Position numbers and translations under genes: made by a program. A DNA stretch of 64,000 nucleotides. It comes from Aggregatilinea lenta. Lineage in GTDB: Bacteria; Chloroflexota; Anaerolineae; Aggregatilineales; Aggregatilineaceae. The notes below the pieces were generated by a model, which was given only the letters and a program-made list of their open reading frames with translations, was not told the DNA's origin and ran no database searches. The stretch lies in NCBI RefSeq assembly GCF_003569045.1, contig NZ_BFCB01000003.1, positions 1,302,001 through 1,366,000 of the forward strand. The letters are read 5' to 3'. Within the stretch, counting starts at the first letter, position 1; every line of letters starts with the position of its first letter. Positions 18,255 to 32,587 of this stretch are shown piece after piece.

Positions 18255-18960
18255 TTATTGCGACGGGATACCAATGGACTCCAGATATTCCTGGTACAGG
18301 TCAAAGGTGTCCGCCTTGATGATGTCTACGCCTGTGTTCAGGTGAATACTGCCCTCGTCGCCGAAGTCGCTCAGCCACGGATCGAGTACTTCCATCGTAG
18401 CTTCTTCGCCGAGGACCGACATGGCATACATCACCCAACCGCTCAGGTAGCCGTAGAAGTACACGCGCTGCCCGATCATAGCCTGGACAACGCCATCTTC
18501 CATGCAGGTTTGCGTCTGAGGTTCGGCGTCAAAGGCGACGATCTTCACTTCGCCTTCTTTGCCCGCTTCTTGCACAGCTTGGCAGGCCATCGGGCCATCA
18601 TACGAGTAGAAGGTGATGAAGCCCGCCAGGTCTGGATAGGTCTGCATCGCTGTCTGCGCGTTGCTCAAGGCAACTTCGGGCTTGACATCGTCCAGCAGAA
18701 CTTCGACCAGTTCCAGGTCGGTGCCTTCCAGCGCATCCTGCACGCCCGCGATCCGGTCCTGGGCATTCTGGGCAGTGGCATAACCGACCAACCCGACGAT
18801 CTGGCCCGACCCGATGATCTCAAGCGCGGCTTCGCCAGCGGCGTATCCTGCGTCGTAGTCCGACATGCCGATGTACATGGACCGCTCGCTGCCGGTTGCA
18901 TCTGAGTCGGTGCATAACACGTGGATACCCTTGTCAACCGCAGTCTTGATGATGTCGGCA
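18255..18960 (-). pseudogene. Sugar ABC substrate-binding protein, 5' end removed at an IS3 boundary
   Basis: Only the C-terminal ~235 residues of an RbsB-like binding protein remain. The frame is open up to the IS boundary at 18960, where residues ADIIKTAVDKGIHVLCTDSD (the usual hinge strand region at about residue 100) begin abruptly. The signal peptide and first lobe half are gone, and the DNA on the other side of the IS is a different gene. A product, if any, would start at an internal GTG/ATG and stay unfolded in the cytoplasm. The preserved part (GLVGYATAQNAQDRIAGVQD and a C-terminal KADTFDLYQEYLESIGIPSQ) shows no stops, so the damage looks recent. Confidence 0.88.
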
Positions 18961-19025
18961 TGACCTGCCCCCCATAAACTGATCCAGTTTGTATGTTAGG
19001 ATTGGACAATCAAGGAGGCAGAGAA

Positions 19026-19301
19026 ATGCCACGCAAGAGGTATTCACCCGACGAGATCATCCACAAGTTGCGCGAGGCTGAAGTCTTGCTCAGCCAAGGG
19101 CTGACGGTGCAAGAAGCGGTGCGACAGCTCGGCATCGCGGAACAAACCTACTACCGCTGGCGCAAAGAGTACGGCGGGCTGGACAAGAGCCAAGCGACGC
19201 GGCTGAAAGAACTGGAGCGCGAGAACCTGAGGCTGAAGAAGTTGGTGGCGGACCTCTCGCTGGACAAGTCGATTTTGGAGGAAGCGCTGTCAAAAAAGTA
19301 A
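19026..19301 (+). CDS. IS3-family transposase OrfA
   Basis: A 91-residue OrfA beginning MPRKRYSPDEIIHKLREAEV. I chose ATG 19026 because AAGGAGGCAGAGAA lies directly upstream. The helix-turn-helix is at ~20-50 (GLTVQEAVRQLGIAEQTYYR), followed by a leucine-zipper-like coiled coil (RLKELERENLRLKKLVADLS). It binds the IS ends and is the upstream half of the frameshifted OrfAB transposase. A decayed relative of this gene lies at 47957. Confidence 0.93.
   Translation: MPRKRYSPDEIIHKLREAEVLLSQGLTVQEAVRQLGIAEQTYYRWRKEYGGLDKSQATRLKELERENLRLKKLVADLSLDKSILEEALSKK
19292..19298 (+). other. Programmed -1 frameshift site A_AAA_AAG
   Basis: The heptamer AAAAAAG lies at the end of orfA, just before its TAA stop. 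A -1 slip moves ribosomes into the orfB frame and gives ...LSKK followed by VISPARRREMVAHV, matching the usual IS3 OrfAB junction. Confidence 0.8.
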
Positions 19302-19324
19302 TCAGCCCGGCCAGGCGACGCGAG

Positions 19325-20161
19325 ATGGTGGCGCATGTTCAGCAGCAGCTGGACATTTCTGAGCGGCGCGCCTGCCGGGTATTGAGACAGCCCCGTGCCA
19401 CCCAGCGTTACGCCAGCCAACGGAGTGATGAGGACCGGCGGCTGACGACGCGAATTGTGGAACTTGCCAGTGCGTACGGTCGCTACGGCTACCGGCGCAT
19501 CACCGCCTTGCTACGGGACGAAGGCTGGCGTGCGAATCACAAGCGCGTCGAGCGGATCTGGCGTCAAGAAGGCTTGAAAGTGCCACCCAAACAGCCCAAA
19601 CGAGGACGGTTGTGGCTGAATGACGGATCCTGTGTCCGTCTGCGGCCCGCCTATCCCAATCATGTGTGGAGCTACGATTTCATGCAGGACCACACGCATA
19701 ACGGCGTGCCGTTTCGGATCTTGAACATCATCGACGAGTACACGCGCGAATGCCTGGTCGCGCGCGTGGAACGATGCTTATCTCATCGTGAGGTGCTGGA
19801 AGAACTGACCTGGCTGTTCTGTACGCGGGGGCTACCCGCCTACATCCGTTCCGACAACGGCCCGGAATTCACTGCCCAGCGGGTCCGCGACTGGTTGTCT
19901 CGCCTGAACGTCGGACCGCTCTTCATCGAGAAGGGCAGCCCCTGGGAGAACGGCTACATCGAGAGCTTCAATGGCAAGATGCGGGATGAACTACTCAACG
20001 GCGAGATCTTCTACTCCCTGAAAGAAGCCCAGGTGCTGATTGAAGACTGGAGGTGCCACTACAACACACGACGACCCCACAGCTCGCTTGACTACCGCCC
20101 ACCGGCTCCGGGGGCTATACTGGTTCCACCACTCGCCACAAACGCCTGGAGTCTAACTTAA
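19325..20161 (+). CDS. IS3-family transposase OrfB (DDE integrase domain)
   Basis: A 278-residue catalytic half, starting at ATG 19325 if made separately, or continuous with OrfA through the -1 frameshift (frame open from 19298). The HTH_21 region (YGRYGYRRITALLRDEGW) precedes the rve core. The catalytic triad is visible: D in WSYDFMQD, D in IRSDNGPEF and E in NGYIESFNGK, then HYNTRRPHSSLDYRPP. All key residues are intact, so the transposase is probably active. Confidence 0.94.
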   Translation: MVAHVQQQLDISERRACRVLRQPRATQRYASQRSDEDRRLTTRIVELASAYGRYGYRRITALLRDEGWRANHKRVERIWRQEGLKVPPKQPKRGRLWLNDGSCVRLRPAYPNHVWSYDFMQDHTHNGVPFRILNIIDEYTRECLVARVERCLSHREVLEELTWLFCTRGLPAYIRSDNGPEFTAQRVRDWLSRLNVGPLFIEKGSPWENGYIESFNGKMRDELLNGEIFYSLKEAQVLIEDWRCHYNTRRPHSSLDYRPPAPGAILVPPLATNAWSLT

Positions 20162-20187
20162 CGAGTGGTACAGACTCTGGGGGCAGG

Positions 20188-20805
20188 TCAATCAGGGCTA
20201 ACAGCTATAGCGGGATTTGTGTCCCCAAGATTCTTAACAAGAGTGACCTCGGGTAGTGAGTACAATGCAGTCCTCTCAACCCCAACAACTACCAGCAGGC
20301 TTTCATCTGAACTGACTATAAAATGAAACCCATCAATTTCCTTTACGGATGATTCCTCAACTATTGACGATACTTTGACTGGCCGATTACCTGATACCAA
20401 TAGGTTTCCATTGGACCCTATCGCGAGAGTGTCAGTCCACCCGTCCACCGTCTTAAGCAGTGCGCCGTCTGGTAGGGACCATAATCTTGTGGCGTCGCTT
20501 CCCCCTGAGGCCAGCAGTTTACCGTCAGGGTGGAATAATAATGCTAACACGTTTCCATCATGCGCTACTCCGCTCGATGAAGGGGCAAAAGAAACTAGAT
20601 CCGGGGTTCCTGTAGGCAGCCGGGTCGGACGCATTTCAGGTTCAGACGAGCAACCCGCCAGCGTGCCCGCTGCGGCAACAGCGCCTGCCGTCTTCACGAA
20701 GTCGCGCCGGTTGAATTTCCACGCGCCACCTGCGTCTTTGCTCACCGCGAAGACCTGCGGCGCGTCCTCATCGTGCGATTCGGATATGGAGGTTTCCTCA
20801 TCCAT
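20188..20805 (-). pseudogene. Tat-lipoprotein WD40-repeat protein, 3' end cut off by the IS
   Basis: 205 residues remain. The start ATG 20805 has GAGGAG upstream. The N-terminus matches its neighbour at 22224: PQVFAVSKDAGGAWKFNRRDF holds the twin-arginine (R33-R34), followed by a lipobox LAGC (C52). After that come about three WD40-like blades (DATRLWSLPDGALLKTVDGW). The frame stops exactly at the IS end, whose first bases TGA provide the stop codon, right after AIAVSPD where WD40 sequence would continue with G. The remaining blades and any cysteine-rich tail are lost. It is the last gene of the radical SAM operon and was probably a second substrate. Confidence 0.85.
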
Positions 20806-20823: not shown

Positions 20824-22182
20824 CTAACAATCTCGTTTTGGAATCACCATCAAATTCTGCCCACGCCAGACCCCACCGCTCGCCATGATGTTCCACAGCA
20901 GCAGGTGCGCGGTAATCTGCCGGTTGGTATGGCACCGCGTCGTCGTCGGGAGAATTGTAGTACCATTTACCACAAAGGACCGCGTGTAACAGTCCCCAGC
21001 ACAGTGCCAGCGGCAGAAACAGTCCGCGCACTGCGTCTGCTTTTTGTCCGCCAGCAAACCTAACATCCGATCCCGAGCGGGCAGATCCACCGCGATCTGC
21101 GTTTCACGCACCGCACCGATGGTGGAAATGTGAGCCATGACATGATTGTCGCTGGCGATCTCGTAACAGGCGACAACCTGTCCGGCGGCGTTGACGATAA
21201 GCGCCTGATAAGGTGCGGTGCAAAACGTCTGTGTCACGAGCCAGGGCCGCGCGCCTGAATAGGCGAGGCTCCGCCCCGCCGCTGCTGCGATCTCGAACGC
21301 TTCCATAAAGGCCGCGACGAACTCCTCACTCTCGGCCAATGACGATTCGCCATGCTCCCCGCGCACCATGTTGAAGGCTGGCTCGACCTGGATAGTTTTG
21401 CAGCCGGTTTCCTCGCAGATAAAGCGCACGTCCGCCGCGAACCGGTCCCGCCAGGGCGCAACCGCCGTCATGCGAATGCCATAGTCGAAGTTTGCGTTAT
21501 CCAGCGCGCGGATGGTCTTCATGACGTGTCGAGATGATCCCTGCCCGGACGCGAGCGGGCGCTGTCGGTTCTGCGTCTCTGGCCCTCCGTCGAGCGAGAT
21601 CGTCAGGCCGTCGAGGTGATGCAGAATCCAATCACGCTGGCGCGCCGACCATACGCCATTGCTGACCGTCGTTACCTTGGCGGGTACGGGCTGCGTGCGA
21701 GCGTAGACAGTGGCTCGCGTCATCACGTCCCAGGCGAAAGTGGGTTCGCCGCCGCCATGAAAACAGATTTCAAACTGCGGCAGATGCTGCTCCGCCGCGT
21801 TGCTCGCCACCTGATCGATCACTGCCCGCGCCAGTTCATAGGACAGATCTTCGGGCGGGAGAATGCCCGCATCCGCATAACAATACGTGCAGCGCAGCGT
21901 ACAGCGGTTGGTCATCAGCAGCACCGCCGTCACCGGGCGGAACTCAGGATTAGGCGGCGGGGGAGGCGCGGGGTCTGGTTGGAGAAAGCCGATCTGATCG
22001 AGAAACGCCAGAACGTCCGCCGGGGCGTCCGGTGTGGACGTCCCATTGTCCTGTTGATTGGCCAGCCGCAGCGCCAGATCGGCCATGCTCCGGTTGCCGA
22101 TGAATGCCAGCTTGAGCAGTGGCCGGTAGAGAATGTATTTGCCGTCGATGGGAATTGCGTAAACGTCCATGTTTCTCTGCAT
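20824..22182 (-). CDS. Radical SAM/SPASM protein, probable peptide maturase
   Basis: A 452-residue protein. The radical SAM cluster motif is CTLRCTYC (C94, C98, C101) after a ~90-residue N-terminal region that resembles the leader-recognition part of peptide maturases (YAIPIDGKYILYRPLLKLAF). GGGEPTF and SLDG motifs of the TIM barrel follow. The SPASM region at ~335-410 has FCTAPY, VACYE and the cluster CADCFCRWHCAGDC, for auxiliary [4Fe-4S] clusters. SPASM enzymes crosslink or oxidise cysteine and other side chains of peptides. It lies 19 bp upstream of the truncated WD40 gene and downstream of the cysteine-tailed one, the likely substrate. ATG 22170 is an alternative start. Confidence 0.9.
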   Translation of the reverse strand: MQRNMDVYAIPIDGKYILYRPLLKLAFIGNRSMADLALRLANQQDNGTSTPDAPADVLAFLDQIGFLQPDPAPPPPPNPEFRPVTAVLLMTNRCTLRCTYCYADAGILPPEDLSYELARAVIDQVASNAAEQHLPQFEICFHGGGEPTFAWDVMTRATVYARTQPVPAKVTTVSNGVWSARQRDWILHHLDGLTISLDGGPETQNRQRPLASGQGSSRHVMKTIRALDNANFDYGIRMTAVAPWRDRFAADVRFICEETGCKTIQVEPAFNMVRGEHGESSLAESEEFVAAFMEAFEIAAAAGRSLAYSGARPWLVTQTFCTAPYQALIVNAAGQVVACYEIASDNHVMAHISTIGAVRETQIAVDLPARDRMLGLLADKKQTQCADCFCRWHCAGDCYTRSFVVNGTTILPTTTRCHTNRQITAHLLLWNIMASGGVWRGQNLMVIPKRDC

Positions 22183-22223: not shown

Positions 22224-23651
22224 TTAATTCGGGTGCCAGTAATGACCGCCGCTGCTAGAGCCTTGTGAGTTGCAGCTGCAATTGCCGACGCACGAGCAGA
22301 CGGCATCGCATGTGCACACCGTGTCGCAGGTACATTGGGAAGTGCTTGTATGGCCCACGCAGCCGCATTCTGCGCCATAGGTGCTGGCCACGACGCAGTT
22401 GCAGTTACAAGTTGCCCCGGCTGGAAGCGAGTAGCCACAGGGTAAGATGACCGTCTCGCCGGTGGACAGTGTGACCCCGGCGATGAGTGCCTGGGGGGGT
22501 AGATCCTGCTGGTCCAGCTCATCGACGAGGCATGATTCAACGGTTCCCTGCGGGAGCGAGCGGATCACGATCAGGCCTGCCCGGTCTCCCGTAAACAGCC
22601 GAGATCCATCCAGCGCCATCGCCTGAACGGTATCCGCGATCCCGTCCGTCAAGGTATTGAGCAAGTCACCGTTGGGCAGCGACCACAGCCGGATCGTTTT
22701 ATCATCACTCGCCGACATCAGCAGCGTTCCGTCAGGGGAAATCGCCACATCACTTATCCAGGTGAGATGCCCTTTCAGCGTGTTAAGCACGACACCTTCC
22801 GGCAGAGACCATAATTTGACATCGTTATCCGTGCTGCCTGATGCCAACGTGCTTCCATCGGGGCTGATGGCGAGGCAGGTCACAATGTTGGTATGTCCCT
22901 CCAGCGTATTGACGACTGCTTTTTCGGCCAGCGACCACACCTTGATGGCGTGATCCCGGCTAGCAGACAGGAGCATCAGGCCATCGGGTGTGAAGAGCAG
23001 GTCTTCGATCCAATCATCGTGGGCGTTGAAATCCTGGGCGACCGCGCCTTCAGGCAGGGACCACAGCTTGATCAGGCCGCTGCTATTTGCCGACGCCAAA
23101 TACGATCCATCCGGCGAAATGGACAGTGCGGTCACCCAGTCCGAGTCTTGCGGTAACGTCTTGATCAATGAGCCATCGGGCAGCGACCACAGGCGGATTG
23201 TTCCGTCTCCCCCGCCTGAAACCAGAAGTTTTTGGTCGGGGGTCATCGCAAGCGCTTGGATTTGGATCGAATGCCCATCCAGGGCTGCAATCACACGCTT
23301 GGTGGATAAATCCCACAATTTGATTTGAGTGCCACTGGCGGCAGCCAGCAGCGTGCCATCGGGTGAGATGGCGAGGGCGCTAATATCGCTGGTGGTTCGC
23401 AGGCTTGCGCACGCTTGCCCGATCTCATCCGGGCTGAAAGTTGGTGGCAATGTCGCGGCGGGGGTCCGCAGCGATTCGGATTTCGTTTGGTCACCCGGAT
23501 TGCATCCGGCCAACGCTCCTACAGCCGTCGCGGTCGCTGCTGTAGTCATAAAGTCGCGCCGGTTGAATTTCCATTTCCCGCCAATCTCCTTATTCACGGC
23601 GAAGACTTGCGGTTCCTCGCGGGCGTGAGATTGATCCTCTTCATCCGACAT
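22224..23651 (-). CDS. Tat-exported WD40 lipoprotein with a 14-cysteine C-terminal tail
   Basis: 475 residues from ATG 23651, with AGGAGAGG upstream. Residues 14-34 carry PQVFAVNKEIGGKWKFNRRD, the twin-arginine is at R31-R32, a short hydrophobic stretch follows, then lipobox LAGC with C50. About seven WD40 blades fill residues ~90-390, with IKLW/IRLWSLPDG repeats and SPDG turns. The last 73 residues (403-475) hold 14 cysteines: LPC, CNCNC, ECGC, then four hexads of pattern CxCxxx, ending GSSSGGHYWHPN. The flanking radical SAM/SPASM genes suggest the tail is modified in the cytoplasm before folded export by Tat. Function is unknown; metal binding, redox or a crosslinked surface structure are all possible. 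Confidence 0.88.
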   Translation of the reverse strand: MSDEEDQSHAREEPQVFAVNKEIGGKWKFNRRDFMTTAATATAVGALAGCNPGDQTKSESLRTPAATLPPTFSPDEIGQACASLRTTSDISALAISPDGTLLAAASGTQIKLWDLSTKRVIAALDGHSIQIQALAMTPDQKLLVSGGGDGTIRLWSLPDGSLIKTLPQDSDWVTALSISPDGSYLASANSSGLIKLWSLPEGAVAQDFNAHDDWIEDLLFTPDGLMLLSASRDHAIKVWSLAEKAVVNTLEGHTNIVTCLAISPDGSTLASGSTDNDVKLWSLPEGVVLNTLKGHLTWISDVAISPDGTLLMSASDDKTIRLWSLPNGDLLNTLTDGIADTVQAMALDGSRLFTGDRAGLIVIRSLPQGTVESCLVDELDQQDLPPQALIAGVTLSTGETVILPCGYSLPAGATCNCNCVVASTYGAECGCVGHTSTSQCTCDTVCTCDAVCSCVGNCSCNSQGSSSGGHYWHPN

Positions 23652-23664
23652 TATGTAGCCTCTC

Positions 23665-24585
23665 CTACGTGAAACTGCGCTCAAAATAAGTTTTGCACAC
23701 GGGACAGGTAGAGCAATTTTTGTCGCATGTCAGCGTGTATTCAAACCACTCGTCAGAAACGGTTATCGCGTCCAGTACTGAGGCAGGGCCGCCACCAATT
23801 TCACTTGGAAGTGCAAACCGGTTGTGGATGTACGCATCCAGCACGCGCACATAATCCTTCGGATCGCGCAGTGTCACGCGCCCGGCCAGCTTGAGGCTGT
23901 CGTACAATCCTTCGTAAATCTTCAGGTGCTGCGGCAGTATCCATGCGCCGGTGAGCCGCAGCCAGGGTTGCGCGTCCAACAACGGTCCGCACAGGGATTC
24001 CGGGAACCAGTCGCCATAACCCATTTCGAAGAAGTGCTGCGTGCGGTAGGGACATCCGCCCAGGCACGCCTCGTTCACGATCAGGCGCAGCTCACCCGTA
24101 AAGGCGGCGCGCAGACATTGCAGCCTACGCAGATCCCGTATAAGGCGCGTATCTGGCACGATGACGTCTACTGCATCCCGGACCATCAACGCCTGGGCAG
24201 GAGTAGCGATTCCCATCAACACGGAGGCTGTGATGCGGTAATGGGGCAGCCGTTCGCGGACCATGTGTGCTAGCGTAAGGTTGCTCACAACTACGCGCTG
24301 GATTCCATAATCCGCATAGAGTTCGCTCAGGACGTCGCAAATCAGTGGGCCGATCCGGTCGACGGGCAGGGGCAGCACGATGGGGTTTACAAGTACCGAT
24401 TTGTGAAATGGCGCGTCGCGCAGGAAAGCCTCGGTCAATGCATGGGGCTGCGGAGCGCGCCCCGTGCCCAGTCCCTCGCCCGGTATGGGGAAGTAGACCT
24501 CTTCGATGAATGGCCCGAATTGAGCATGGAGATCTTGCCAGAATGCCACGGGCTGGTCGATGTAAGGGATCACCCAGGTGCTCAC
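23665..24585 (-). CDS. U32 peptidase-like (UbiV/YhbV-type) Fe-S protein
   Basis: 306 residues starting at GTG 24585, chosen because GGAG lies upstream and the G is shared with the TAG stop of the radical SAM gene. The barrel-like pattern GIQRVVVSNLTLAHMVRERL, ITASVLMGIATPAQALM, DVIVPDTRLIRDLRRLQ and the cysteine motif RLIVNEACLGGCPYRTQHF are characteristic of U32-family proteins. The C-terminus has CDKNCSTCPVC. Members such as UbiU/UbiV and RlhA bind Fe-S clusters and take part in oxygen-independent hydroxylations rather than proteolysis. Placed between a radical SAM enzyme and the cysteine-tailed WD40 protein, it may be an auxiliary modification enzyme. The U32 assignment is from remembered family patterns. 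Confidence 0.72.
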   Translation of the reverse strand: MSTWVIPYIDQPVAFWQDLHAQFGPFIEEVYFPIPGEGLGTGRAPQPHALTEAFLRDAPFHKSVLVNPIVLPLPVDRIGPLICDVLSELYADYGIQRVVVSNLTLAHMVRERLPHYRITASVLMGIATPAQALMVRDAVDVIVPDTRLIRDLRRLQCLRAAFTGELRLIVNEACLGGCPYRTQHFFEMGYGDWFPESLCGPLLDAQPWLRLTGAWILPQHLKIYEGLYDSLKLAGRVTLRDPKDYVRVLDAYIHNRFALPSEIGGGPASVLDAITVSDEWFEYTLTCDKNCSTCPVCKTYFERSFT

Positions 24586-25988
24586 TAATTGAACTCCTGG
24601 CCTTCCGGAACATCGCTGGACTGCCACACCACTCGTTCCAGTGCCGTGAGGTCATTGAGTAGGCGCAATGCGAGCGCTTCCTGGTCCAGATCTCGTAGGA
24701 TGCGATAGAGCGTTATGATTCGAGCCTGGATGCATAACCGATCGAACTGTCCCTGCTCGACCTCCAAGGTATGGTTGACGTGACAACCACCCGCACAGTG
24801 CCATTTGCAGAAGCACTTCTCACAAAACGGCTTATTCAGCACGTTTTGCCTGCGCACGCGGTCAAGCGCGGTTGGTTTGACGTCAGCGCCCTCGCTGGTA
24901 ATCTGCCCCAACTGCAGGTCGAGTCCCTTTGCTTCCCATTCGCGGGGTAGCAGGTAACAGGCGTTGACGGAACCATCGGGCGCGACGATTGCGGCATCAT
25001 CCCCCACGGGACAGAAGGTGACGTGGCGCACTGTAGTATCGGCGGCAGCATACACGAGGGGCACGCCGTAGGCTTCGAGCGCGCGGGCGGCGTCGACGAA
25101 ACGTCGCGCAAACTCCCAGGGGTCGGGGGGCTGCAATTGAGCAGTCTGGGACCAGGGTGATGTCTGGACGGGCTCGAAGCTGACGACGGCGGGGCTAAAT
25201 TCCTGGCAGAACCAGGCCGCAATGTCAGGCATTCGGCTCACGGTCGCCTGCGTGACACATGCGCGCAGGCATAGTTGTGCTGAGCTGGCAGAGAGGTGCT
25301 TTGCAGTTCGGTAAACGGCGTTGAAGGTGGCCTTCCCGTCGCGAAAGGGCCGGTGGAGGTTCTGTATATCTGCGGGGCCATCGAAGGACAGTACCACCGA
25401 GTCAATGTTTGCGCCCACCCAGGCGCAACGTGCCTCACCGAATGCACCGTTTGTCGTGACTTCGAACACCACGGTGATGTGAAGCTCACGTGCGCGCTTA
25501 CGGGCTAGCTCAACCACTTCTTCCACGATGTGCGGAGCATAAAACGGTTCTCCACCAAAGAAGTGGATCTTGGCATACGGTTCTTGGTGATCCCGGACTT
25601 GGTTCATGTACCAGTCCACTGCCGCCCGCGCCGTATCCCGGCTCATGGTAAGGTTTGTTTCGTTAGGGGTTAGAAATCCACAGTACTGGCACGCAAAATT
25701 GCATCCCCGCGTCGGCAATATTCCGAGCATTGTGGGCACGAAGTTACCCTGGCGCGGCACGGGTGTGGTGCACTGTTCGGCGAGTTCGCGGAGTAGTTCT
25801 GCCAGCGCAGTGTTCTCCGATATGTCGTTTGGCTGGGGGGGGCATACCTGGAGCATCTGTGCAGCGCGTCGATTGACCAGGGCAGCGATGTTCTTGAGCG
25901 GGGCATAGACTAGTACATCATCGAACACTGGGACGGTGAAGATACTATCCGAACCGGTCGGAGACGGAGACTGCGGCCAGATGGGCAT
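24585..25988 (-). CDS. Radical SAM/SPASM protein, probable peptide maturase
   Basis: 467 residues and the first gene of the five-gene minus-strand operon. The radical SAM motif is CNFACQYC (C96, C100, C103), followed by FFGGEPF and LSFDGPADIQN. The SPASM segment has FCPVGDD, NACYLLPRE and the cluster CEKCFCKWHCAGGC, nearly the same as the second radical SAM protein (CxxCFCxWHCAGxC). The N-terminal ~85 residues resemble the maturase leader-binding region (VPVFDDVLVYAPLKNIAALV). The stop TAG overlaps the GTG of the U32-like gene by one base. Two related but distinct maturases in one operon suggest sequential chemistry or one enzyme for each of two WD40 substrates. Confidence 0.9.
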   Translation of the reverse strand: MPIWPQSPSPTGSDSIFTVPVFDDVLVYAPLKNIAALVNRRAAQMLQVCPPQPNDISENTALAELLRELAEQCTTPVPRQGNFVPTMLGILPTRGCNFACQYCGFLTPNETNLTMSRDTARAAVDWYMNQVRDHQEPYAKIHFFGGEPFYAPHIVEEVVELARKRARELHITVVFEVTTNGAFGEARCAWVGANIDSVVLSFDGPADIQNLHRPFRDGKATFNAVYRTAKHLSASSAQLCLRACVTQATVSRMPDIAAWFCQEFSPAVVSFEPVQTSPWSQTAQLQPPDPWEFARRFVDAARALEAYGVPLVYAAADTTVRHVTFCPVGDDAAIVAPDGSVNACYLLPREWEAKGLDLQLGQITSEGADVKPTALDRVRRQNVLNKPFCEKCFCKWHCAGGCHVNHTLEVEQGQFDRLCIQARIITLYRILRDLDQEALALRLLNDLTALERVVWQSSDVPEGQEFN

Positions 25989-27388: not shown

Positions 27389-30300
27389 CTACTCACACAA
27401 CGGCTCGATACGATACTGCGCTCGCTCCTCGCAGGTGAAATCGCGTACATAGCGATTTTCGCGTACCCAGGCGAACAAGTCGTCCAGGGGCCAGTCGGTG
27501 ATGCGCCACTGGATCACGTCCTCCTGTGGACCGAACGTTGACGAATAAGCCGTCTGGCCGTCGGGACTAAACACAACGTTCCACAAGACCGTCGAATAGC
27601 TACGGCCCCAAAATCGTTGAAGCTCCTCCCCGGTTTCGAAACTCCACACAACTAATAGTCCCTGATGACCACCGGCAAGCACGTACTTTTGGTCGGGGCT
27701 TATGTCGAACGCCCAGAATCTGGCTGATGGTGCCGTGAAGAAGCGGACGTCCGCGCCTGTCTCCGCATCGACCAGAAATATGAAGCCGCCCTCTGAGCCG
27801 GTCAAAAAGTAGCGCGAATCGGCTGTAAACAACACAGCAGCCGCGATATGGTCGACCTGGCGGATACGCTGTCCAGTGGATATATCCCACAACGTGACGT
27901 GATCGTAGACGCTGTTCGCCGTGACAGCCTTACGACCATCCGGACTGATGCTGATGTCGAGGATCGACCCGGTTGGTTCAAAGCGCCGGATTTCCTGACC
28001 GGCTGTCAGGTCCCACAAAATTAGTTCGCCCTCAACGCCCTCTTCCTCCCATGCCGTGCCCCATTGTATGGTGCCCGTGAGGGCAGTGCGCCCATCCGGG
28101 CTGAAGGTGCTCGCACGTGGTAGGAACGTGTGTCCCATCAATTCATGGAGGACTTCGCCAGTTTCGATATCCCATAACACGACCTTGTTTGCTGCGGTAC
28201 CACTGAAGGTGGCACTGGAGCAGATCAATGCTTGCCGTCCATCGGGACTGAAACGCGCAGACAAAATTTGCGATTCCAATCCGTCTAGACGTCGCACTTC
28301 CTGGCCCGTCTGAGCGTCCCACAGGATCGCCACTCCGCCATCATACCCTCCGGTGAGCAGATACCGCCCATCAGGACTAATATCCACAGTGCTGAGTCCC
28401 CCCTCGGCATGGAAGCGGCGAATTTCGGGGCTGACCGGCAGATTGACCAGGATCACCTCACCGGCGTCACTCCCAATCAGAGCAAATCGACCGTCAGGGC
28501 TGACTGCATTCGCCCGAATGAGTTGGCGCGATGGCGTGAGAATCAGATTAACAGGTGTCCAGGAAGTGACATCCATCCAATTGCATACGTTGCCTTCACA
28601 TTCCAGTTCATTGCGGCCGTCTGGGGATATAGAGATGCCAGATGGTGTATTGGCAATCGACGCTGAACGAACAAGCCTGCCTGTGTCAATATTCCACTCT
28701 CGATACACGGTATCGAAACTGAGTTCGAATAGGAGTGTCTGGCCCTGTTTGTTAGTCCGGAAATTGATGGTCAGCGCACGTGAACCGGGTTCCACCAGTG
28801 AGTGAACAACCTCGCCGGTATCTACTTCCCACAGCAGGATTTTCGGATCGGCGGAGTCACCCCCGGCGGCTGCGAGGTGCTGATCAGGACTGAACGCAAC
28901 TGCAGTGATACCATCATTGTGTCCCTCGAAGCGACGGATGATTTGCCCTGTCGCGACTTCCCACAAGATCGCGGTGTGATCGTCCGATCCCGAGAGGGCT
29001 GTCCTGCCATCAATACTGAAAGCGACACTGGTTACGCTGCCGGTATGGCCTTCAAAGCGGCGAATGAGCTCGCCCGTTTCGACGTTCCAGAGAATTAGCG
29101 TGCCATCTTCCGACGTGGAGAGCGCGCGTTCTGGTGTGGTGGGGTCAAATGCTACACTCGTGACCCAGTCCGTATGACCGCCCAAGCGGCGCAGTTCGGT
29201 TGCAGACTGAATGTCCCACACGATCAATTCGCCCTGGGTACAGACCCCCTCGACCAGCTTCGCGCAACTGCCGGACAGTCCCAGATTTGAGTCTGAGCTG
29301 AATGCCACTGCTTTCACTCTGTTGCCCTGGTTGCGGAGCAGCGCACGCGTGCCCATGCCAAATGCCACTGTCGACAGGGTTCGGACAGCCTCCGCTGGCG
29401 GCTGTTCCCCGTTGACCGCTTCGAGTGCCAACGCCAGTGCCAGGTCAGATTCTCCGCTATCAAACGCCTGCTGCGCATTACCGGACAGCACCAAACTACG
29501 GTTGATCGTAGCCTCACTTTCGGCCTTAGTGCGCTCCTCTTGAGCTTGCTGCTCGCGGTCGAAGGCCACCAGCGCCAGCACCGTCATGATCAGCGCCACC
29601 GCGATCACTGTTCCAAATGCAGTATTCCGCACGCGACGACGCCGGATTTGCCTGTTTTGCTCCTCGGCGACACTGGTCGACAGGAATTGGCGTTCGTCTG
29701 TGGTCAAGGTGATACCGGTACGCGCTGCCCATCCCTGGAACTGCGACAGCCGAGAACCGCCTAAGAGGTAGCTTCGATCCTGGGCGGAGCACTTCCACTC
29801 GGCAGCGGCAGCCGCGAGCAGGCGTTGCTGGCGGATATCGTCCCGGCTCTCGTCCAACCATAAGTGCAGAAGCCGCCACTCACGGATGATTGCCTCGTGG
29901 GCAACCTCGACTGTAGGCTCGCGTGTGATCGGGTCGTAATCGAAGGTTAACAGGCGCGGTTGGCCAAAAGCTTTCAGGACATCGGTGACTGCTTCGCCGT
30001 CGATGGCAAGGAGCTCCGATTGTCGGGTGCGACGGCGGGTGTCCTCGGCCCCATCGCCGAGCGTTACTAACCGCAAGAAGATTTGTTGAGCAACAGATTG
30101 CCGGTTCTCGTCGAGGCTGTCGTAGATTTCGTCCGCGCGCTGTGCCAACACACCCATTACACCACCAAGCGCCCGATAAGCATCAAGCGAAAGAGTATGA
30201 TCGCTGCGACGCTCATATAACTCGGTCAGGGCATATTGCAGCATCGGCAGAGCACTTGGCCGCTCGCCCACCTCGCTCACTACTACCGCCAGCAAAGCTG

Positions 30301-32587
30301 GCTCTACGGTGATCCCGGCACGTTCCGCCGGGCCAATGACGGCGTGTTCCAGTTCGGCGCGTGTGAGGGGTACAATCACCTCTGTGCGCTGGCGCACTAG
30401 CTCACAGAAATCGGGGATCATTAATGGGCGGTCATAGAAGTCAGCGCGCAGAGTGATGACCACACGCAGCGGACAGTGTGGATCGGTCACAGCGGCAAAG
30501 ATCAGATCAAGGAAGTGTCGCGCGTGCGCTTCTTCCTCGACCAGCATGAACACCTCCTCGAATTGGTCGATGAGCAACAGCAGTTCGCCATTCTCCGCCA
30601 GCACCAGCCGTGCCGCGCGTGCTAAACCGCGCTCATCGCGTTCCAACTGCTCGACCAGGCTGGGGGGCTTCTGAGTGGCAACCCGCAGGAGCGCGATTTC
30701 CAGCTCGTCCAGGGGATGGGTCCCGGGCAGCATCTCAGCTATGAACCAACTGTCCGAGCCTGGCAGCATGCCGCGTCGCAGGGCAGGCAGCAGCCCGGCT
30801 TTGGCGACGCTTGACTTGCCGCTGCCGCTGGGGCCAACGACGGCCAGAAACCGCGCGAACGGGTGGTCCTCCGACAGCCGGGCGACGAGCCGGTCGGTGA
30901 GGGCTTCACGACCATAAAAATCGCCGGCGTCTGCCTCGCTGAACGCGCGCAAACCTTTGTAGGGATTGCGCTGCACGACTAGATGATGGGCGGGCGTCCA
31001 TGCGTGAACATCAGGAGAGCCACCCTGCCAGGAATCAGCGCCCACCGCCTGGCGAAATGCAGCCGCCAGTTCCAATGCATCCCGGTAACGTTGTGCTGGG
31101 TCAACTGCCATCGCGTGCGAGATGACTTCGTCGAGTGCTGCTGGTAGCTCGGGACGCGTATCGCGGAGCGAGGGAGGAGGAGAACTGAGCAGCGTGTCAA
31201 GCAGCTGGAGGGCGGATAGTCTTGCCGGGAATGGCGACTGACCGGCAAGACATTCGTATACCAGCACGCCGAAGCAGTAGAGATCGGATTGCACTCCGAC
31301 CGGATCACCACGGATCTGTTCCGGTGAAAGGTATGTCGGCGTCTCAGTCATTGTCCCTTCTTGCACGGTGTGCGGCGCCGCGCCAAGCACCCTCGCAATA
31401 CCAAAATCGCTCAGATAAGCATTGCCATCGTCATCTAGCAGCACATTGGCCGGCTTCAGGTCGTGGTGGATCACACCTGCGCGGTGCGCTACGGTCAAAG
31501 CCGCGGCGACTTGCTCGACAACACGTGCGCAGTCGCTAAGCGAAAGAGGACCGCTTTTGAGACGGGCATGCAGACTCTGGCGCAGCAGGCGCGTGACGAG
31601 AAACGCGCCGTCCGGCTCGCGCCAGAAATCATAGAGCGGCACAATGTGCGGGTGTTCGAGTTGCGCTACAAGCTGAGCCTCGGTCTCAAAGCGGCGGATG
31701 AAGTCGGGCTGGTTGGCGTAACCAGGACGGATGACCTTGATCGCCACCTCGCGGTCGACCACGGGCTGCCACGCGCGGTAGACCTCGCCAAAGCCACCCA
31801 CGCCAATGCAGTCGCGAATTATGTAGCCACGGATGGCTTGCCTGACCTGGGGCGAGGGCTGCTCACCGGCACGAACGCGCTCGAAGAGGCCGGTTGTCTC
31901 GGCACTTGGCTCGATCCCAAGTTCGTCGATCAGGACTTGGCGGCAAATTGTGTATTGGTCGAGCGCTTTGGCACGTTGCCCGGACTTCCACAGCAGGTCA
32001 ATCAATAGACGGTGGCTTTCCTCGCGCAGCGGATCTAGGCCCAGCAGACGTGTGGCTGCACTGATGCCAGCCTGGAAACTACCCAACTCGGTGTGGCGAA
32101 CAGCGAGACGATCCAGGCCATCCATGACGACCAGCCGTAGCCGTTCACGTTCGCGGGTGGCCCACGACTCAAATGCCGTGCTGTCGATATAGAATCCCGC
32201 CAGGAAATCCCCTGAGTACAGGTCTACGGCTTCGGCCAACCGCGCCACATCCGTCCCGGCTGTGTTGAGCCGCGTCTCGAACGCAGCAGCATCCAGCCAG
32301 ACGTCACCGTCCCAATGAATGCCAACCGACTGGCGGGTAATGGACATGAAAGGACCAACAGTCCGGCGCAGGCTTGTCAGTGCCACACGCAGATTGGAGA
32401 GTGCTTGCGTTTGGGAGCGTTCCTCCCACAAGAATTCAGCTAGCTCCTCACGCGGATGAGAGCATCTGGTGCAGGCCAGGTAGACCAGCAGCGCTGGGGC
32501 CTTGCGTGAATCGAACCCGGTGATCAGTTTTCCGCTCAGGCAGATTGACAAACCGCCCAACGTCCGGATCTCAAGTTCGGCGCTCAT
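27389..32587 (-). CDS. SARP/BTAD - Ser/Thr kinase - STAND ATPase - WD40 signalling protein
   Basis: 1732 residues in one chain. Residues 1-240: SARP-type helix domain plus bacterial transcriptional activation (BTAD) TPR-like domain (LGGLSICL ... VLIDELGIEPSAETTGLFER). Residues ~254-515: Hanks-type kinase with GVGGFGEV, VAIK (K~284), HHDLKPAN (HRD written as HHD, catalytic Asp kept) and SDFG. Residues ~540-960: STAND-type ATPase with FYGRE, Walker A GPSGSGKSS (~585) and Walker B LLLLIDQFEE. A membrane helix lies at ~990-1008 (VIAVALIMTVLALVAF) after a basic RRRRVRN run. Residues ~1060-1690: WD40 propellers. GAGGTGAGCC precedes the ATG. It probably senses a signal through the propeller and answers by phosphorylation or as a scaffold. 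The partner is unknown. Confidence 0.9.
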   Translation of the reverse strand: MSAELEIRTLGGLSICLSGKLITGFDSRKAPALLVYLACTRCSHPREELAEFLWEERSQTQALSNLRVALTSLRRTVGPFMSITRQSVGIHWDGDVWLDAAAFETRLNTAGTDVARLAEAVDLYSGDFLAGFYIDSTAFESWATRERERLRLVVMDGLDRLAVRHTELGSFQAGISAATRLLGLDPLREESHRLLIDLLWKSGQRAKALDQYTICRQVLIDELGIEPSAETTGLFERVRAGEQPSPQVRQAIRGYIIRDCIGVGGFGEVYRAWQPVVDREVAIKVIRPGYANQPDFIRRFETEAQLVAQLEHPHIVPLYDFWREPDGAFLVTRLLRQSLHARLKSGPLSLSDCARVVEQVAAALTVAHRAGVIHHDLKPANVLLDDDGNAYLSDFGIARVLGAAPHTVQEGTMTETPTYLSPEQIRGDPVGVQSDLYCFGVLVYECLAGQSPFPARLSALQLLDTLLSSPPPSLRDTRPELPAALDEVISHAMAVDPAQRYRDALELAAAFRQAVGADSWQGGSPDVHAWTPAHHLVVQRNPYKGLRAFSEADAGDFYGREALTDRLVARLSEDHPFARFLAVVGPSGSGKSSVAKAGLLPALRRGMLPGSDSWFIAEMLPGTHPLDELEIALLRVATQKPPSLVEQLERDERGLARAARLVLAENGELLLLIDQFEEVFMLVEEEAHARHFLDLIFAAVTDPHCPLRVVITLRADFYDRPLMIPDFCELVRQRTEVIVPLTRAELEHAVIGPAERAGITVEPALLAVVVSEVGERPSALPMLQYALTELYERRSDHTLSLDAYRALGGVMGVLAQRADEIYDSLDENRQSVAQQIFLRLVTLGDGAEDTRRRTRQSELLAIDGEAVTDVLKAFGQPRLLTFDYDPITREPTVEVAHEAIIREWRLLHLWLDESRDDIRQQRLLAAAAAEWKCSAQDRSYLLGGSRLSQFQGWAARTGITLTTDERQFLSTSVAEEQNRQIRRRRVRNTAFGTVIAVALIMTVLALVAFDREQQAQEERTKAESEATINRSLVLSGNAQQAFDSGESDLALALALEAVNGEQPPAEAVRTLSTVAFGMGTRALLRNQGNRVKAVAFSSDSNLGLSGSCAKLVEGVCTQGELIVWDIQSATELRRLGGHTDWVTSVAFDPTTPERALSTSEDGTLILWNVETGELIRRFEGHTGSVTSVAFSIDGRTALSGSDDHTAILWEVATGQIIRRFEGHNDGITAVAFSPDQHLAAAGGDSADPKILLWEVDTGEVVHSLVEPGSRALTINFRTNKQGQTLLFELSFDTVYREWNIDTGRLVRSASIANTPSGISISPDGRNELECEGNVCNWMDVTSWTPVNLILTPSRQLIRANAVSPDGRFALIGSDAGEVILVNLPVSPEIRRFHAEGGLSTVDISPDGRYLLTGGYDGGVAILWDAQTGQEVRRLDGLESQILSARFSPDGRQALICSSATFSGTAANKVVLWDIETGEVLHELMGHTFLPRASTFSPDGRTALTGTIQWGTAWEEEGVEGELILWDLTAGQEIRRFEPTGSILDISISPDGRKAVTANSVYDHVTLWDISTGQRIRQVDHIAAAVLFTADSRYFLTGSEGGFIFLVDAETGADVRFFTAPSARFWAFDISPDQKYVLAGGHQGLLVVWSFETGEELQRFWGRSYSTVLWNVVFSPDGQTAYSSTFGPQEDVIQWRITDWPLDDLFAWVRENRYVRDFTCEERAQYRIEPLCE

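Follow-up and report, generated by a model that had tools for sequence, protein, structure and literature searches.

Most of what is known of radical-SAM peptide maturation concerns short peptides. QhpD, one of the closest described enzymes, is of the SPASM type and forms Cys-to-Asp/Glu thioethers in a protein subunit via an N-terminal leader before export; QhpC sheds a 28-residue leader and exits by an ABC transporter, according to the accessible part of the source (PMC7876137). PapB links Cys to Asp in CX3D motifs, as stated in the accessible text on that enzyme (PMC9413430), and the U32 families have the Cys pattern CX6CX15CX3/4C in the available portion of the paper describing them (PMC6747719). 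The available sections of a study of Anaerolineae MAGs list antiSMASH results as generic 'ranthipeptide' or RRE gene clusters (PMC11748557).

Here we describe a Cys-rich protein tail that is accompanied by a cassette of radical-SAM genes. A targeted literature search, with most subscription papers outside its coverage, found no published account of such a system. The new element would be radical-SAM peptide modification tied to full-size, probably exported proteins.

The Cys tail and its conserved features

The window, the whole stretch of 64,000 nucleotides of Aggregatilinea lenta DNA that was analysed, encodes a tail protein (P0001) next to two SPASM radical-SAM proteins, rSAM_A and rSAM_B. 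Table 1 shows the positions of these and related features. The start of the tail protein was set at the ATG at 23651; the ORF list has a longer TTG start at 23684. In the AlphaFold model, built from a 5-row alignment, the propeller is confident, a helix is predicted at residues 31-46, and pLDDT is below 50 at residues 1-70 and 405-475; the Cys tail is thus disordered in the model. When the whole protein was used as a query against its own genome, 35 matches were found, mostly other WD40 proteins, and the leader was covered by one row besides P0001 itself, the truncated second gene. A 1732-aa protein encoded at 27389-32587 of the window also receives own-genome WD40 matches of this query; by eye it begins like a regulator and also contains a protein kinase domain, WD40 repeats and a region resembling an NTPase.

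Table 1. Features of the tail-protein locus (window positions)
Feature	Position	Strand	Basis
Tail protein (P0001), 475 aa: Tat-type N-terminus, WD40 propeller, Cys tail	22224..23651	-	Translation, HMM scans, AlphaFold
N-terminal 50 residues: leader plus Tat-type signal, ending in lipobox-like AGC	23502..23651	-	TIGR01409; lipobox by loose pattern only
Leader motif PQVFAV, residues 14-19, N-terminal to the twin arginines (31-32)	23595..23612	-	Motif in 25/28 tail proteins
WD40 propeller (carrier domain), residues about 90-375	22527..23384	-	Pfam, AlphaFold
Cys tail, residues 403-475	22227..22445	-	Cys count, homologues
Four CxCxxx hexads back to back, residues 440-463	22263..22334	-	Read from translation
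End motif HYWHPN, residues 470-475	22227..22244	-	H, Y, W, P invariant in 22 aligned tails
rSAM_A, SPASM radical-SAM protein	24585..25988	-	NCBIfam, Pfam, CX3CX2C
rSAM_B, SPASM radical-SAM protein	20824..22182	-	NCBIfam, Pfam, CX3CX2C, co-occurrence
U32-like protein (P0004), accessory	23665..24627	-	PF01136 20.5 bits, cutoff 22.4; Foldseek best 5d88
Second tail-protein gene, same leader, WD40, stops at IS before any tail	20188..20805	-	Leader match
IS element cutting the second gene, 12-nt inverted ends	18961..20190	+	Ends 18961-18972 and 20179-20190

The initial annotation had reported 14 cysteines in the final 73 residues of the protein, with four consecutive CxCxxx hexads, and both counts were confirmed. 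The tail contains CNCNC and CGC, followed by CTCDTV, CTCDAV, CSCVGN and CSCNSQ, and terminates in GSSSGGHYWHPN. The successive Cys-to-Cys gaps are 10, 2, 2, 10, 2, 9, 2, 4, 2, 4, 2, 4 and 2. When the 73 tail residues were shuffled, a four-hexad run was found in 1 of 20,000 shuffles.

We compared 28 tails, selected by an end matching H[YF]WxP[NC] and two separate CxC motifs; nine of them come from one genome, and the full-length proteins have 236 to 755 aa. The tail-start pattern failed in L072, and its final 110 residues were taken instead. Outside the 28 lie three proteins that have just one CTCNC core (L052 9453-10631, L047 6271-7836 and L078 1618-2958), along with a tail match on contig C74 of G859.

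The homologous tails retain many cysteines, contrary to the scattered or few cysteines by which the initial annotation would have recognized an accidental periodicity. CxC pairs hold 256 of the 287 tail cysteines (2,000 shuffles: mean 92, maximum 125). Exact six-residue steps from one CxC to the next account for 37 of 88 steps (shuffles: mean 0.9, maximum 6), and the other steps range from 4 to 25 residues in tails having 2 to 10 CxC units each. Thus, six residues are preferred but not required. The regular six-residue rod that had been proposed did not survive the comparison, and a strict hexad rod was rejected since both the step length and the number of CxC units vary.

What is kept in the tail is the CxC pair and the end motif, not the six-residue step. 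Across the 20 genomes, the consensus tail has a PCGSPIPxGAxCxCNCV-like start, CxC units and an HYWxPN terminus. In 22 aligned tails, the columns that never vary are P19, C24, C26, V29, H79, Y80, W81 and P83, in the numbering of the window's 84-aa segment. The conservation of the HYWxPN end is as expected of a follower and agrees with the initial suggestion for the final residues. An acidic residue follows the tail cysteines as CX3[DE] in 5 of 287 cases, as CX2[DE] in 53 and as CX0[DE] in 51; a PapB-type CX3D core was rejected on the first of these counts.

Two loci have unusual arrangements. In L074 2303-3328 (G724), tandem PCGSPIP...CNCV cores occur in one protein, which ends in YPC instead of YPN. 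In L047 5030-7836 (G542), there are two tail-protein genes, and the second has its leader and tail in different frames, which may reflect a frameshift or a misassembly.

Distribution of the tail and its radical-SAM cassette

The tail is found in at least 20 genomes, 19 of them from Chloroflexota and one a Desulfobulbus MAG. In this tally, G288 and Candidatus Chlorohelix allophototropha are counted as one genome, and G407 and G859 (L018) as another, both identities that we infer. The first two loci came from a U32 query, which led to three tail proteins in an Anaerolineae MAG (L018) and one in the Desulfobulbus MAG (L019); in 400 genomes of the phylum, this query gave 9 matches, and the eight outside the window's own genome were weak (E 2e-19 or worse). 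With a five-tail profile, matches were then found in 10 of the order's 154 genomes, the window's own among them. With a 16-tail profile, 10 of 396 genomes in the class sample were matched, two of which were previously known, and with a 22-tail profile, 3 of 400 in the phylum sample: the window's own genome, the previously known G096, and G288, where the match coordinates agree with those on the Chlorohelix plasmid. Since the window, L018 and L019 supplied the sequences for the tail queries, the matches in those genomes arise by construction. Furthermore, a limited number of candidates is scored in each genome (usually 25, 14 or 15), so that divergent tails may go undetected.

In the sample of its own phylum, the Desulfobulbus MAG was the sole match among 297 genomes, so its tail may have come by horizontal transfer or by a binning error. 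In Candidatus Chlorohelix allophototropha, the cassette and two tail proteins (WP_341472206 and WP_341472205) are encoded on plasmid NZ_CP128402.1. A match was also found on a Caballeronia plasmid, in a stretch without annotation.

The usual order of the cassette is rSAM_A, PqqD-like, rSAM_C, (U32), tail protein(s), rSAM_B, (rSAM_D), RRE2, rSAM_E, HemN/HutW-like. In the window, rSAM_A, the U32-like gene, the tail-protein gene, rSAM_B and the second leader-bearing WD40 gene all lie on the same strand. By tblastn in the 20 genomes, rSAM_B was found in 19, rSAM_A in 18, rSAM_C and RRE2 in 16 each, rSAM_E and HemN-like in 14 each, PqqD-like in 13 (that of Chlorohelix by blastp too), U32 in 6 and rSAM_D in 3. 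Many of the gaps are contig ends or stretches outside those read; the G741 and G096 contigs start at the tail, and G698, the single tail genome without rSAM_B alongside, has its contig end there. The 9.3-kb contig of G542 has neither rSAM_C nor a PqqD-like gene. In the Desulfobulbus MAG (L019 6318-11732), rSAM_C is fused to a U32-like part and rSAM_E to a HemN/HutW-like part.

We analyzed the cassette proteins with curated models. The radical-SAM domain of rSAM_A and rSAM_B scored above the Pfam cutoff and SPASM slightly below it, and the closest curated models for both were the PapB, SCIFF, nif11 and QhpD maturases, all far short of cutoff. The CX3CX2C motif was present in every protein collected (A 18/18, B 19/19, C 16/16, E 14/14, HemN-like 13/13). 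The HemN-like protein is HutW-like, with 198.6 bits against a cutoff of 400. Among the best 25 models for A, B, rSAM_C, rSAM_D, rSAM_E, the HemN-like protein and the enzymes of G424, no named family reached its cutoff. For the 14 PqqD-like and RRE2 proteins, one passed PF05402 (25.9 against 23.4), four scored below the cutoff and nine gave no match; these names rest mainly on homology to the one L019 protein that passes. The Foldseek search with the U32-like protein of the window, which falls short of the PF01136 cutoff, returned 5d88 first at E 4.1e-8 (mean pLDDT of the model 66; the other four models about 48), and seven cysteines are conserved in three sequences.

The reciprocal search used a nine-row rSAM_B profile with a threshold of E 1e-70 in the same 154 genomes of the order. 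The profile matched 11 genomes, and the ten with E below 1e-190 were exactly the ten tail genomes, two of which (the window's own and G407) had contributed tail query rows. The chance of this coincidence is about 7e-15 if the genomes are assumed to be independent, which kin genomes are not.

The eleventh match, G424, was at E 1e-88 with 30% identity to rSAM_B. This distant SPASM radical-SAM enzyme is almost equally near rSAM_B and rSAM_A (E 1e-55 and 3e-54), and its gene (L096 7115-8746) is followed by one for a 66-aa peptide with CxC pairs, CGCQGHCSCDGH, which has no carrier and no match in an NCBIfam scan. Positions 10022-11479 of L096 encode a further radical-SAM protein. The distant enzyme gene and the peptide resemble a conventional RiPP version of the same tail and radical-SAM theme.

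Carriers, leader and the reduced copy in the window

The tail is attached to WD40, bacterial SH3, NBR1-type Ig or unknown domains. WD40 repeats were found by Pfam in the window protein and by eye in L018, L019, G428, G542, other G407 proteins and one Chlorohelix protein. In a Pfam scan of ten other tail proteins, SH3_3 passed its cutoff in four and fell short of it in three, an NBR1-type Ig domain passed in two, and one Chlorohelix tail protein had no match. The SH3 carriers have Thr/Pro-rich linkers. The tail is a movable module on otherwise unrelated, probably exported proteins.

L018's genome gave 11 tail-profile matches, which represent about ten proteins on six contigs; nine of the sequences were read. 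On four of these six contigs, no cassette gene was matched in the stretches of 14 to 20 kb that were read, which suggests that the cassette serves distant tail proteins in trans. The same genome has one rSAM_B match at E 1e-70.

In 25 of the 28 tail proteins, the twin arginines have a P-x-[VIL]-[FY] motif on their N-terminal side, a descriptive count, as the pattern was written after the leaders were seen. Among the other three, the G741 and G096 proteins run off the contig end, and the G542 protein is in a different frame from its upstream leader. NRR and F34 are invariant across 5 leader sequences. The motif probably functions as a leader. The twin-arginine signal of the window protein scored 20.7 bits with TIGR01409, above the cutoff of 16.7, and the Tat model PF10518 was above the cutoff in one of 10 relatives, below it in seven and absent in two. 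A loose lipobox pattern was found in 13 of the 28 tail proteins.

The copy of the cassette in the window is reduced. In the window's own genome, rSAM_C was not found at E 1e-5, and RRE2 gave E 0.008 at best. At 18255-20805, an IS element whose 12-nt inverted ends are perfect stands between a 5'-truncated sugar-binding-protein gene (by eye) and the 3'-truncated tail-protein gene, and no target duplication was seen by eye at its flanks. Truncated genes on both sides together with the lack of a target duplication fit an IS-linked deletion, which would have carried off the last part of the second gene and possibly also RRE2, E and the HemN-like gene. This smaller gene set may be non-functional. 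Even so, rSAM_A of the window retains 86 of 87 near-invariant columns and rSAM_B 113 of 114, so that both enzymes look constrained.

A candidate maturation pathway and its relation to known systems

We consider it fairly probable that a RiPP-like maturation cassette acts on the tail of full-size, Tat-exported proteins. This reading is favoured by the occurrence of the tail in 20 genomes on differing carriers, its linkage and co-occurrence with rSAM_B, the radical-SAM motifs and nearest curated models of the enzymes, the CxC pairs, the leader motif, the disordered tail in the model, the PqqD-like protein that passes PF05402, the fusions in L019 and the CxC peptide of G424. It is weakened by the scores of A and B, far under all curated cutoffs shown, the rarity of CX3[DE], the few PqqD and Tat-model scores above cutoff, the reduced gene set of the window and the near-equal distance of the G424 enzyme from rSAM_A and rSAM_B. 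In the proposed pathway, the P-x-V-F-x-V leader would dock on the PqqD-like protein and on RRE2; in the window, where the copy is reduced, it would dock straight on the maturases. The SPASM radical-SAM core pair A and B would act on the disordered tail in the cytoplasm, and fuller clusters would add C, E and the HemN/HutW-like enzyme to tail modification. The likeliest chemistry would link the cysteines of CxC to neighbouring residues. The cross-linked tail suggested by the initial annotation is plausible in that SPASM radical-SAM genes adjoin, and since the CX3D motif of PapB is nearly absent, either a new spacing rule or a different chemistry would be needed. The HYWxPN end could be a follower or a second modification site. 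The finished protein would be exported by Tat, with some copies as lipoproteins, and a stiffened or redox-active tail would be displayed outside the membrane.

The HYW residues are conserved as strongly as the cysteines, the cassette mixes unlike radical-SAM types, including the HutW-like one, sometimes with the U32-like protein, and CX3D is rare in the tails. These features would also fit a radical-SAM modification without Cys thioethers, such as C-C links in HYW, methylation, or hydroxylation of V, D or N after CxC, with the cysteines holding metal or forming disulfides. We regard this as unlikely, since the best models for A and B include several thioether formers (PapB, SCIFF and QhpD) and Cys is the residue that expands. 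It is improbable that the tail is a covalently unmodified, metallothionein-like metal-binding tail and that the radical-SAM genes serve something else: the CxCxxxCxC spacing does resemble metallothioneins, but rSAM_B co-occurs exactly with the tail in the order, HYWxPN and the leader are conserved, and two scanned tails gave no match at E 1 in Pfam or NCBIfam to a metallothionein or any other family.

The stand-alone 66-aa CxC peptide beside a related enzyme in G424 is what would be expected if the tail were cut off as a small product, with the WD40, SH3 or Ig part as a giant leader. Such an ordinary RiPP is quite improbable here, as the carriers are whole domains with Tat-type signals, and a recognised peptide exporter or protease was absent among the matched cluster genes (unmatched flanking ORFs excluded). 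An ordinary disulfide-rich extracellular stalk would agree with the Tat-type signal and with the Thr/Pro-rich linkers of the SH3 carriers. Such a stalk is very improbable, as the CxC pairs vary in number and spacing, no tail structure is predicted, and the radical-SAM linkage would be left unexplained.

Returning to a maturation cassette acting on full-size proteins, we tentatively propose, with rather less assurance, that it represents general protein capping, in which the leader at one end directs a radical-SAM battery to the Cys tail across a folded, exchangeable carrier; included in this proposal is a covalent Cys scaffold or cofactor displayed after Tat export. A single cassette might act in trans on a whole series of carriers. 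Modification of the tail, if it occurs, would make it a portable cross-linked or redox-active cap for folded proteins, with a natural rule set of leader, tail and end motif that is testable with the genes of Candidatus Chlorohelix allophototropha.

When the locus is set against known RiPP systems, a maturase lies beside the precursor (rSAM_B in 19 of 20 genomes, and the reciprocal test), and a putative N-terminal leader and a C-terminal core are conserved (25 of 28 proteins, and the tail motifs). The precursor, on the other hand, is not short, and the G424 relative alone has a small one. antiSMASH-like tools may already flag tail loci; the tail, carrier domain and cassette are not named in the available sections on the Anaerolineae ranthipeptide and RRE clusters (PMC11748557).

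The window's U32-like protein resembles the U32 hydroxylases UbiU/UbiV and RlhA in its U32-like fold (5d88) and in having seven conserved cysteines, but its cysteines depart from the CX6CX15CX3/4C pattern as given in the available portion of the source (PMC6747719). The names of the CefB (Cys-every-fifth) and CXXX-repeat maturases imply evenly spaced cysteines near a SPASM maturase, and the comparison was by name; the CefB model gave 68.1 bits for A and 56.3 for B against a cutoff of 600, and the CXXX-repeat model 50.2 for A against 350. PapB, which acts on the ranthipeptide PapA (freyrasin), ranks first or second among the curated models for A and B and shares the repeated Cys motif, while its model NF047865 gave 118.9 bits for rSAM_A and 109.4 for rSAM_B against a cutoff of 340.

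The QhpD model TIGR03906 gave 94.9 bits for rSAM_A and 90.5 for rSAM_B, below its cutoff of 453. As far as the accessible part of the source describes QhpD and QhpC (PMC7876137), the likeness lies in a SPASM radical-SAM enzyme with a protein-sized substrate bearing an N-terminal leader, and the differences here are the Tat-type signal, the changing carriers and the tail module. Although A and B fall short of its family cutoff, QhpD offers the most useful working comparison, since its substrate is a protein and its action depends on a leader.
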